Source of the DNA: Mycobacteriales bacterium
GTDB taxonomy: Bacteria; Actinomycetota; Actinomycetes; Mycobacteriales; SCTD01
Reading direction: 5' to 3'
NCBI GenBank assembly: GCA_030697205.1
Contig: JAUYQP010000007.1
Location: 1 to 64,000 of the forward strand
Length of the DNA stretch: 64,000 nt
The notes under the pieces were generated by a model. It made no database searches and was not told the origin of the DNA. It worked only from the letters and a program-made list of their open reading frames with translations. Shown one piece after another: positions 7,601-9,501 of the stretch. Every line of letters begins with the position of its first letter. The first letter of the stretch is position 1. The translations under genes were made by a program, and so were the position numbers.

Positions 7601-8488
7601 AGCCCGGGCGACCTCCTCGGCGACCTCCGCCATCTCCTTGCCGCTCTTCAGGCACGCCTCGGCGTTGCGCCGGTCGACGTGGCGCAGGTCGAGCGGCACC
7701 AGCCGCCGGCTCGCGTCGAGGACGTCGGCGGTCGGGGCGTCACCGCGGTCGGCGTAGCGCACGACGTTGGTGAGCACGCTGCGGGCGCGGTGGGCCTCGG
7801 CGAAGCCGAGCAGCCGCCCCGCCTGCGCAGCACTGTCACGGGTGCGGTGCGAGACGACCTCGACGACGACGGCGTCACCGCCGAGCACGTCGCGCCAGCG
7901 GTCGAGGTGGTGGCGGGCGACGTCGTCGCGGTGGACCGCGACGGCCCGACCGAGCTCGGACTGCGGGCCGAGCAGGGCCGCGAGGCTGCCCGCCTGCGCC
8001 GCCCCGCCGGCGTGCTCGGCGACGAGGTCGAGGCTGGTCACCGGGGTGCCGCGCTCCCCTGCCAGGTGGGTCCCGGACACCAGCCGGCACAGCGCCGCCC
8101 AGCCGCGGCCGTCGCGGGCGAGCAGGGTGACCCGGGGCAGCTCGGGGCCGCCACCGGGGCGGTCGACGAAGGCCCCGCCGCGCGCCGGGCTGACGCGCCG
8201 CTGCTGCTGACCGGGCTCGTGCGGGGGCCGGCCGTGCAGCCCGGCGGCGCGCGGTCCGCACAGGTCGAGCGGGCGGACCGCGAGGTCGACCCCGAGGAGC
8301 GGGCGGATCCCCGCGGCCCGGCAGGCCTTGGCGAACTTCACCGCGCCGTAGGTGCCATCGCGGTCGGTGAGGGCGAGGGCGTCCATGCCGTGCTCGGCGG
8401 CCCGCTCGACGAGCGCGCGCGGGTGGGAGGCGCCGTGCCGCAGCGAGTAGCCGGACGCGACGTGCAGGTGGACGAAAGGGTCGGACAT
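4607..8488 (-). CDS. dnaE2: Error-prone DNA polymerase III alpha-type subunit DnaE2
   Basis: A 1293-residue C-family DNA polymerase, longer than the roughly 1050-1150 residues usual for DnaE2. It begins MSDPFVHLHVASGYSLRHGAS with an N-terminal PHP domain. The palm carries PDIDVD near residue 445, the catalytic aspartates of the DnaE family. A helix-hairpin-helix region and an OB-type C-terminal region follow, and the tail (YATGFRASPYADVKPAG) is typical of DnaE2. In actinobacteria DnaE2 (ImuC) does damage-induced mutagenic synthesis, normally with ImuA' and ImuB. Extra length lies mainly between the PHP motifs and the palm. It is last in an apparent operon with DUF6504 and HEPN genes behind a LexA-like box; no ImuB gene is adjacent. 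Confidence 0.93.
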   Translation of the reverse strand: MSDPFVHLHVASGYSLRHGASHPRALVERAAEHGMDALALTDRDGTYGAVKFAKACRAAGIRPLLGVDLAVRPLDLCGPRAAGLHGRPPHEPGQQQRRVSPARGGAFVDRPGGGPELPRVTLLARDGRGWAALCRLVSGTHLAGERGTPVTSLDLVAEHAGGAAQAGSLAALLGPQSELGRAVAVHRDDVARHHLDRWRDVLGGDAVVVEVVSHRTRDSAAQAGRLLGFAEAHRARSVLTNVVRYADRGDAPTADVLDASRRLVPLDLRHVDRRNAEACLKSGKEMAEVAEEVARAAGLTDGGRGLLARTRHEADRCAVDPHRDLGLRDGVGGARFPELAVQGEPMAVLRERVEAGFGRRGMERRASTLARLEEELAVIGGLGYPAYFLTVADVVDLIKGMGVRAAARGSGAGSLVTYLLGISDVDPVRYGLLMERFLSPLRHELPDIDVDVESARRTEVYERVLARYGGDRCCCVSMMDTYRARHAIRDVGAALGMPPGEVDGLAKAFPHIRANMVRQAMRDLPELRASGLGQGEQGRRVDLVLRLVERLDGLPRHIALHPCGVLLSDRTLLDRTPVESSWLGFPMSQFDKDDVEDLGLLKLDVLGIRMQSAMQHAVAEVARVDGTVVDIDAVPRDDPATFALVQSTRTLGCFQIESPGQRELVGKFAPETFEDLIVDISLFRPGPVKSDMVRPFLMARQGWQKPVYPHPDLRPALEQTYGVVVFHEQVLQIVSVLTGCSLAEADEVRRTLGSPEGQEDVRVWFVPTALGNGYPLAVVKEVWEVLRAFGSFGFCKAHAAAFALPTYQSAWLKAHHPAAFLAGVLTHDPGMYPKRLILDDARQLGIAVLGLDVNLSGADYRVERVAALDEPPPAILDQVSGDAQAPPRQRPTDLRLPDGRGYGIRIGLAEVKGINGGEVARVVAGRPFASLSDFWHRAAVSRPVVERLVVAGAFDSLYGLGSTVPGRRRGQVTRRDLLLQVAELDRWSRSVARAGRRPASTRRRTPSPVTVTSLDDVRGRQERQSQAAAVTEPVDVQLALDLGDEPETRPSGLPEMSQAERTRAELDVLGLDVSSHVMDAYAPFLEALGTTRAKDLLDRRNGSDVLVAGVKVATQTPPIRSGRRVVFVTLDDATGPLDATFFEEAQVGYATTLFHSWLLVIRGQVRRTGPRGISLLALGAWELPLLHDAWREGGLDAVWPLLEQPGQVTSSAGLAAVQGAAASRSTRPVMTSPPLVGGGAGHSGVGGMVHVYATGFRASPYADVKPAGDGTGTSRGSGAPRKVWHASPGSSGR

Positions 8489-8531
8489 GCGGCTCGGAGG
8501 GTGCTCAGGGGGAAGAGCGGGTGGGGACGGC

Positions 8532-8945
8532 TCAGCGGGTGAGGAGGAGCTGGGGACTGGCGAAGCCGAGGGTGGTCTCGACGACGGCGAGGAAGGTCTC
8601 GGCGTCGCGCACCAGGTCGTCGGCCTCACGGTCGGTGACGGCGCCCTGGACGTGGGCCTCGGCCGCGGCCCGCTTGACCGCGCCGTCGGCGAAGTAGGCC
8701 GCCCACTCCCCCAGCTCCGGGGCGACCCCGGCGAGCAGCGACCAGGCCGAGCGGGGTCGGGTGGCCCGCCGCTCCGGTCGCGGCGCGGGACGGGCCCGGG
8801 CGGCGAGGACGGCCGCGGCGGAGCGCAGCGCCGACAGGTGCGCCGCGGCGTACCTCTCTGCGGGGTCCATCGCGGTCGTCGCCTCGACCAGGCCACGGCG
8901 GGCGAGGTGCAGCAGGGACGCGGCGGGCAGGGTGGGGGTGGTCAT
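8532..8945 (-). CDS. SAV_6107-type HEPN domain protein
   Basis: A 137-residue, Ala- and Arg-rich helical protein (MTTPTLPAASLLHLARRGL at the N-terminus) that matches the SAV_6107 family of actinobacterial HEPN-fold proteins. The pattern [23 protein letters not shown] and the ending SPQLLLTR fit this family from memory. HEPN proteins are often RNases or nucleotide-binding partners, but the usual R-x4-6-H motif is not clear here, so no activity is claimed. Its ATG overlaps the TGA of the DUF6504 gene as TGATG, a sign of translational coupling. DnaE2 starts 43 bases downstream. Its place in a LexA-like-controlled operon suggests a role in DNA damage tolerance. Confidence 0.8.
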   Translation of the reverse strand: MTTPTLPAASLLHLARRGLVEATTAMDPAERYAAAHLSALRSAAAVLAARARPAPRPERRATRPRSAWSLLAGVAPELGEWAAYFADGAVKRAAAEAHVQGAVTDREADDLVRDAETFLAVVETTLGFASPQLLLTR

Positions 8946-9304
8946 CAGTCGAGAACCCGGGCGAGCGACCAGCTGCCACGGGCCCCGTCGAAGCACAGGT
9001 CGTAGACGCCGGTGCCTGCGGTCAGGGCCTCGTGCCGGCCGGTGCCGGCCTCGACCCGCCACCAGTCGCACTCGCCGTCCTCGACCGACAGCAGCGGGCC
9101 GGCAGCGGACGCGCCGCTGTCGCCGCTGTCGCCGCTGTCGCCGCTGGTCAGGGCGCGCACCGCGTCGGTCCGCCACCACTGGCCGGACTCGGTCCAGCGG
9201 GCCAGCACCTCGCGGACGAGGTAGAGCCGGCCGCGCCACAGGAACTGCGCGGGCGCGTCGCGCTCGGAGCGGACCTCGACGGGGTCGGTGTGCAGACGGG
9301 TCAC
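8945..9304 (-). CDS. DUF6504 family protein
   Basis: A 119-residue protein with RDAPAQFLWRGRLYLVREVLARW near the N-terminus and a W-rich C-terminal half (GVYDLCFDGARGSWSLARVLD), which is the DUF6504 pattern. The family is usually found next to Y-family polymerases and DnaE2 in actinobacteria, and its function is unknown. GTG at 9304 has a GGGGAG ribosome site just upstream and matches where family members begin; the longer reading to 9436 is low complexity. A run of (Ser-Gly-Asp) repeats, encoded by a four-copy 9-base tandem at 9112-9147, splits the domain. It is first in the operon with the HEPN gene and dnaE2. Confidence 0.82.
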   Translation of the reverse strand: MTRLHTDPVEVRSERDAPAQFLWRGRLYLVREVLARWTESGQWWRTDAVRALTSGDSGDSGDSGASAAGPLLSVEDGECDWWRVEAGTGRHEALTAGTGVYDLCFDGARGSWSLARVLD

Positions 9305-9485
9305 GGAGCTCTCCCCAGGGATCGGCGCGGGCCGGGGGAAGGCGGCGGTCGAGCGGCCCGACCGGGACGCGGCGCTTCCCCACGCCCCGCCCCGGTCGGG
9401 ACCCCGGGCCCGGGCGTGAGAGGGTCGAGGTCGCACGCCCGGGCCGGAGACCGCCCGTCGGGAGTCCGCGAAGCCTCCCGATCAT

Positions 9486-9501
9486 TCGAATCTATGTTCG
9501 A
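9486..9501. promoter_or_regulatory. LexA (SOS) box candidate
   Basis: TCGAATCTATGTTCGA has half-sites TCGAAT and GTTCGA around a 4-base spacer. The actinobacterial LexA operator is TCGAAC-N4-GTTCGA, so 11 of the 12 arm positions match. It lies about 180 bases upstream of the DUF6504-HEPN-dnaE2 operon and 72 bases beyond the end of the PEP-mutase-like gene, which is transcribed towards it. It therefore most likely controls the damage-response operon. No other site of this quality was noticed in the window. Confidence 0.82.

Follow-up and report, generated by a model that had tools for sequence, protein, structure and literature searches.

A probable LexA-repressed translesion synthesis cassette of Actinomycetes, in which DnaE2, a standalone ImuB-C domain (DUF6504) and DinB are joined by a HEPN protein

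The C-terminal domain of ImuB (ImuB-C) has been known since 2013 (PMC3765255). A survey of DNA polymerase complexes published in February 2026 (PMC12926913) describes a putative mutasome of Actinobacteria, DnaE2B-[ImuB-C]-PolY-RecA, of which Tessaracoccus lapidicaptus is an example. Here we consider a locus with the same polymerase core, found in the first 64,000 nucleotides of contig JAUYQP010000007.1 of a Mycobacteriales bacterium (assembly GCA_030697205.1); this whole stretch is referred to as the window. The locus consists of a LexA-like box followed by genes for DUF6504, HEPN_SAV_6107, DnaE2, a methyltransferase and DinB (Table 1). It shares with the published module a genome devoid of ImuB, a DnaE2 of a non-mycobacterial clade, a standalone ImuB-C and an apparently active DinB with a RecA-NT-like tail.

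We consider it likely that this locus is a LexA-repressed translesion synthesis cassette of the split-mutasome kind, which would combine DnaE2B, ImuB-C and an active DinB, use RecA rather than ImuA, and include the HEPN protein as an additional component. An earlier note on this DNA had reported a LexA-like box matching the operator at 11 of 12 arm positions, ahead of three coupled or closely spaced genes on the minus strand, and both observations hold. The box differs from TCGAAC-N4-GTTCGA at a single position and is conserved in relatives; the stop codon of DUF6504 shares one base with the start codon of HEPN (TGATG), and 43 bp separate HEPN from the start of dnaE2 at 8488. The interval given in that note, 8488–9501, takes in the box, DUF6504 and HEPN, but leaves out dnaE2 itself.

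The box is flanked by DUF6504 on one side and, on the other, by the end of a phosphoenolpyruvate mutase gene (9573–10337, minus strand). All of 30 DUF6504 loci sampled across the class, the window included, have a box with 11 or 12 matches out of 12 located 34–254 bp upstream of the domain, while only 0–1 of 500 shuffles per locus reached 11 matches. A second set comprised 80 named loci from species genomes (Geodermatophilaceae, Frankiaceae metagenome-assembled genomes (MAGs), Motilibacter, Intrasporangiaceae, Nocardioidaceae, Kineosporia, Nanopelagicales and others); 69 of the 70 that had enough upstream sequence carry a box with at least 11 of 12 matches upstream of the cassette. By this footprinting across both sets, the box at 9486–9501 is a true regulatory site and a predicted LexA operator. 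The 1.23 Mb of named loci contain 72 perfect boxes, of which 71 are at most 600 bp upstream of DUF6504, HEPN, DnaE2 or DinB; the remaining one is found in a stretch in which DinB would be expected, 158 bp short of the end of that stretch. HEPN genes of three other genomes are preceded by the very same 16-mer as in the window, TCGAATCTATGTTCGA. The consensus determined by chromatin immunoprecipitation (ChIP) of LexA in Streptomyces venezuelae, tCGAAC-N4-GNNCGa, agrees with the box (PMC9380542).

The whole genome (4.02 Mb in 59 contigs, rated 100% complete) has just nine places with at most one mismatch to TCGAAC-N4-GTTCGA. One of them, at 68534 of contig C23, is about 160 bp before the match to recA. 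We also observed that the two profile parts of this recA, outside the window (C23:66495–68375), are separated by about 1.1 kb that stay in frame, within an open frame of 747 aa; the interruption looks like an intein.

The usual cassette of the relatives is box-DUF6504-HEPN-DnaE2-(methyltransferase)-DinB. Among the matches listed, DUF6504 is at most 4 kb upstream of a DnaE2B-like gene in 75 of the 84 genomes that have both, HEPN is directly downstream of DUF6504 in 48 of 53 genomes checked, and, in 61 of 72 genomes, DnaE2 is followed by a Y-family domain (DinB) in the same orientation. When the cassette is broken up, its parts have boxes of their own: before DnaE2 in two loci, between divergent units in another (L195), and directly before a displaced DinB in six loci of Geodermatophilaceae. 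DNA polymerase IV, which the earlier note described as the only Y-family polymerase nearby, is indeed the sole one in the genome, but it is no bystander, since it closes the cassette in relatives. It seemed unrelated in the window because the gene of a 440-aa protein separates dnaE2 from the methyltransferase-dinB pair. The methyltransferase itself occurs in LexA-fronted operons of many families, even in those devoid of DnaE2 (HEPN-methyltransferase-DinB).

Profile matches identify DUF6504 as the C-terminal domain of ImuB in the form of a separate protein, since PF20114 also matches ImuB C-termini: among five alphaproteobacterial ImuB, it gives 24.3 and 27.8 bits (cut-off 24.2) in two and 15–18 bits in the other three. 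The assignment is carried by the matches to ImuB1 and to Deinococcus, and is backed by published work (PMC8072749, PMC6511836). In D. ficus, the gene in the position of DUF6504 is the published standalone ImuB-C (PMC8072749; paired by gene order). In an Arthrobacter plasmid, DUF6504 immediately precedes DnaE2, an arrangement consistent with the published DnaE2-[ImuB-C] type. As modelled by AlphaFold2, DUF6504 is beta-rich (predicted local distance difference test score, pLDDT, 81), and searches of the PDB with this model gave no convincing match (best Z score 5.6), which agrees with the description of ImuB-C as a barrel that has no close relatives in the PDB (PMC12926913). A sequence search among solved structures returned nothing for DUF6504 or for HEPN. 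DUF6504 is thus ruled out as an unknown replacement of ImuB, and the view that it takes the place of ImuB while having no assigned role is not borne out.

Two observations concern DUF6504 itself. In the window (about 9115–9152), a 9-base repeat, GTCGCCGCT, present in about four copies, encodes a DSGDSGDSG stretch in a loop predicted with low confidence. On the conjugative Arthrobacter plasmid pYA7-1a, DUF6504-DnaE2 adjoins the gene of an SOS response-associated peptidase.

We surveyed 247 genomes of the class (actinomycetes). DnaE2B-like proteins, which have 51–81% identity whereas other DnaE proteins reach at most 41%, occur in 111 of them; the set, defined by this gap in identity and not by a tree, takes in the Streptomyces-like DnaE2 and leaves out the mycobacterial type. 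By this measure, the DnaE2 of the window is placed outside the ImuB-associated clade. Its closest named relatives (85%) are from uncultured Frankiaceae and Mycobacteriales MAGs. A search of the genome with PF00817, even at an E-value of 0.1, returned DinB alone and no ImuB; five genomes served as controls, and ImuB-like proteins (40–60 bits) were detected in three genomes (G003, G095 and G010). An ImuB2 profile, which detects ImuB in 104 of the 247 genomes, likewise found none in the genome of the window. PF00154 (RecA) missed the positive control as a detector of ImuA', and an ImuA' protein query was used instead: it recovered relatives in five control genomes with E-values of 1e-19 or better, and only a 26-residue match at chance level in the genome of the window. 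ImuA' and ImuB, noted before as not adjacent to the operon, were therefore not found anywhere in this genome.

Across the survey, a DnaE2B-like protein and ImuB are found together in 4 genomes, DnaE2B-like alone in 107, ImuB alone in 100 and neither in 36 (p = 1.7e-32, a value that ignores relatedness). Both types occur within each of six families (f15, f19, f28, f35, f38 and f39), from which we infer that replacements of one by the other happened repeatedly. Three genomes that have lost the DnaE2 of the window type, and that encode ImuB at another place, keep DUF6504-HEPN behind a perfect LexA box. DUF6504 and HEPN do not always accompany dnaE2 when ImuB is missing, as had been asked: among the 107 such genomes, 82 have DUF6504 and 77 have HEPN.

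The DinB of the cassette looks catalytically active, judging from its active-site motifs. Nearly all of 78 DinB have the same motifs as that of the window, together with the RecA-NT-like tail and the clamp-like motif, as judged by pattern and by eye and not with a profile.

Regarding the HEPN protein, its AlphaFold2 model (pLDDT 90) has the HEPN fold and aligns to 2hsb with a Z score of 15.6 over 116 residues (root-mean-square deviation 2.6). At the position of the Rx4-6H motif, the arginine is present in 128 of 129 members, while the histidine is found in only 6 and is replaced, mostly by leucine, in the other 123; the window protein reads RDAETFL. Since the histidine is kept in just six members, ribonuclease (RNase) activity is unlikely. 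HEPN is found in 172 of the 247 genomes, in one copy per genome with one exception among the matches listed, and its presence is independent of DnaE2B and of ImuB (p = 0.33 each). This rules it out as a part specific to DnaE2. Nor is it specific to ImuB-less genomes, and it has its own box also in ImuA'-ImuB-DnaE2 operons.

HEPN is indeed fronted by LexA boxes in very different contexts. In families f19 and f3 it comes first in the order box-HEPN-ImuA'-ImuB-DnaE2-(methyltransferase)-DinB; in f12, f15, f28 and others the order is box-HEPN-methyltransferase-DinB; in f21 a solitary HEPN follows the box (locus L272; 18 of 18 promoters). Outside the DUF6504 arrangement, 50 of 70 HEPN promoters have a box with at least 11 of 12 matches, and none of the 70 control windows taken from the same loci does. 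Because these boxes front HEPN in all contexts, and in nearly all the families tested, except Streptomyces-like genomes, HEPN_SAV_6107 is a candidate for a widely conserved member of the actinomycete SOS regulon. None of the papers searched links HEPN to LexA or DnaE2.

In the mechanism that we consider most likely, DNA damage would activate RecA and lead to the cleavage of LexA, so that DUF6504, HEPN and DnaE2 would be made together, as well as DinB where it is linked. This first step is supported by the conserved operators. By homology and in line with published models, the ImuB-C barrel of DUF6504 would dock onto DnaE2, as ImuB-C does in these models, while DinB, through its RecA-binding tail motif and its clamp motif, would provide the scaffold that ImuB supplies elsewhere. 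DnaE2 and/or DinB would then copy past the lesion at the cost of mutations. HEPN_SAV_6107 is probably a non-catalytic, helical partner, induced in the SOS response, that acts as an accessory or a regulator of translesion synthesis, as its genomic context suggests; the earlier proposal that it is an accessory part of the mutasome thus remains plausible. It is more likely to work with DinB and RecA than with DnaE2, since it keeps its box, and in most families also its proximity to dinB, in genomes that have lost DnaE2 and DUF6504 or have ImuA'-ImuB-DnaE2 instead. Going further, the translesion complexes of Actinomycetes may have in HEPN_SAV_6107 a real subunit or regulator, one that belongs to the core of the SOS response without having been recognised as such and that acts with DinB and RecA whichever DnaE2 mutasome is used; we advance this tentatively, as a serious possibility which falls somewhat short of an expectation. 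If so, HEPN could possibly contact the clamp by means of the QxLP-like tail at its C-terminus.

In 59 of 131 HEPN proteins, this tail (window 8532–8560), which follows the last helix, ends in QPxLP, QQxLP or QLLL, compared to 28 in shuffles (maximum 39), and resembles a beta-clamp peptide.

An alternative, which is possible although we lean towards doubting it, is that HEPN is a passenger: it would be under SOS control for a reason other than translesion synthesis, such as RNA handling or a checkpoint, and would share the operon by way of a stable dinB syntenic block. The independence of HEPN from DnaE2B and ImuB would fit, as would its solitary position under a LexA box in f21 and the lack of any dinB nearby in the examined loci of f21 and of the Streptomyces-like family f20. 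On the contrary, a mere passenger would hardly be expected to overlap DUF6504 by one base in the window, to follow it directly in so many genomes, to form with it a joint divergent unit in L195, and to be repeatedly co-located with three different translesion arrangements.

It is improbable that HEPN acts like the HEPN-MNT toxins, as an RNase that would be induced in the SOS response and slow down growth while the DNA is damaged. The protein has a true HEPN fold, nearly all members keep the arginine of the motif and six have the histidine as well; however, the histidine is replaced in all other members, PMC3710099 lists the HEPN_SAV_6107 / HEPN-M family among those that have no conserved catalytic motif, and no MNT antitoxin gene is present among the examined neighbours (PEP mutase, DUF6504, DnaE2, methyltransferase, DinB and DUF3040).

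Several observations weigh against the reading of the locus as an SOS-controlled cassette with HEPN as one of its components. The box of the window has one arm mismatch, and the window alone contains two sites with at most two mismatches when 2.4 are expected, which is the level of chance. In the Streptomyces-like family, HEPN is kept but none of 18 promoters has a good box (all 18 are at 10 of 12 or below), and the available part of the ChIP study of LexA in S. venezuelae (PMC9380542) does not name HEPN. There are 28 genomes, mostly of the reduced family f27, that have DUF6504 and DnaE2 but no HEPN; HEPN is absent from some complete DUF6504-DnaE2-DinB cassettes and is therefore not essential to them. 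The comparison of DUF6504 with the C-termini of actinobacterial ImuB2 using hhalign is weak (E-value 0.024, probability 1), as is that of a profile of standalone DUF6504 with ImuB C-termini (E-values for a set of 34 sequences). Last, the induction of DinB in the window is uncertain, because the inserted gene cuts it off and it has no box of its own. Nevertheless, a constitutive operon behind a box that matches by chance, as the one arm mismatch and the roughly two sites with at most two mismatches expected for DNA of this length would allow, is very improbable given the box of 69 of 70 related loci, the 71 of 72 perfect boxes that precede cassette genes and the failure of all 70 control windows to reach 11 matches.

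Regarding the other features of the window, a possible promoter was recognised by eye, and the LexA box would start 8 nt downstream of its second hexamer; a scan for consensus promoters and terminators found none, this promoter included. The 440-aa protein gave no match in a Pfam search. Beside the first open reading frame, positions 221–407 contain two direct copies of 88 nt that are 85% identical, each of which folds on itself. Among the Streptomyces-like loci (L267, L269 and L287–L304), the methyltransferase comes after HEPN in two wider loci. Actinomycete cassettes were also seen on contigs labelled as Spirochaetaceae and Bifidobacterium breve MAGs (L146 and L185), which are probably binning or labelling errors.

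Table 1. Features of the locus, with positions in the window
Feature	Position	Strand	Remarks
LexA operator TCGAATCTATGTTCGA, predicted by footprinting	9486..9501	no strand	11/12 to TCGAAC-N4-GTTCGA, one arm mismatch
Possible promoter TTGACG-N17-TCTACT	9510..9538	minus	inference by eye
DUF6504 (PF20114), predicted standalone ImuB-C, 119 aa	8945..9304	minus	PF20114 match 61.6 bits
HEPN_SAV_6107 (PF18726), 137 aa	8532..8945	minus	PF18726 match 117 bits; HEPN fold in model
DnaE2, ImuB-less type (DnaE2B-like), 1293 aa	4607..8488	minus	clade identity 51-81%, others <=41%
440-aa protein, inserted between dnaE2 and methyltransferase	3212..4534	minus	outside conserved cassette
S-adenosylmethionine-dependent methyltransferase (PF08241)	2350..3117	minus	cassette member in many relatives
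DinB (Pol IV)	1057..2337	minus	DMDAFYA and SLDEA active-site motifs, RecA-NT-like tail EAEQAVDRAARRFGAGAVRPAALV, clamp-like QLLL

The mutasome described in PMC12926913 is the closest to this locus. HEPN does not occur in that paper, nor does the name DUF6504, and the available part of it reports neither LexA boxes nor the order DUF6504-HEPN-DnaE2-methyltransferase-DinB. What appears to be new here is HEPN as a component, together with the conservation of its LexA boxes, the order of the cassette and the scale of the mutual exclusion with ImuB. The ImuY-containing system also has a standalone ImuB-C (annotated DUF6504) that adjoins DnaE2, and no ImuA; it differs in that its Y-family protein, ImuY, is inactive, lexA is inside the operon and there is no HEPN. 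The family of HEPN_SAV_6107 / HEPN-M proteins, their fold and their unconserved catalytic motif are as described in PMC3710099, where neither SOS control nor a translesion context is mentioned.

The dnaE2-dinP operon of Streptomyces (DnaE2B-iPolY-RecA; PMC9380542, PMC6511836) resembles the cassette in its related clade of DnaE2 and in its regulation by LexA, together with a protein of the DinB family; on the contrary, its Y-family partner is inactive, there is no DUF6504, and HEPN is encoded elsewhere, behind no good LexA box. The ImuA'-ImuB-DnaE2 mutasome of mycobacteria, similarly, has a LexA-controlled DnaE2 and an ImuB-C domain, but there ImuB-C forms one protein with an inactive Y-family member, and the place of RecA is taken by ImuA'; neither is found in the genome of the window. 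Actinomycetes would then have two SOS mutasomes that hardly ever occur together. DUF6504 is the ImuB-C part of the second, so that the many proteins which now bear that name can be given a new one. In addition, a small and widespread HEPN protein, apparently under SOS control, has been left out of current mutasome models.

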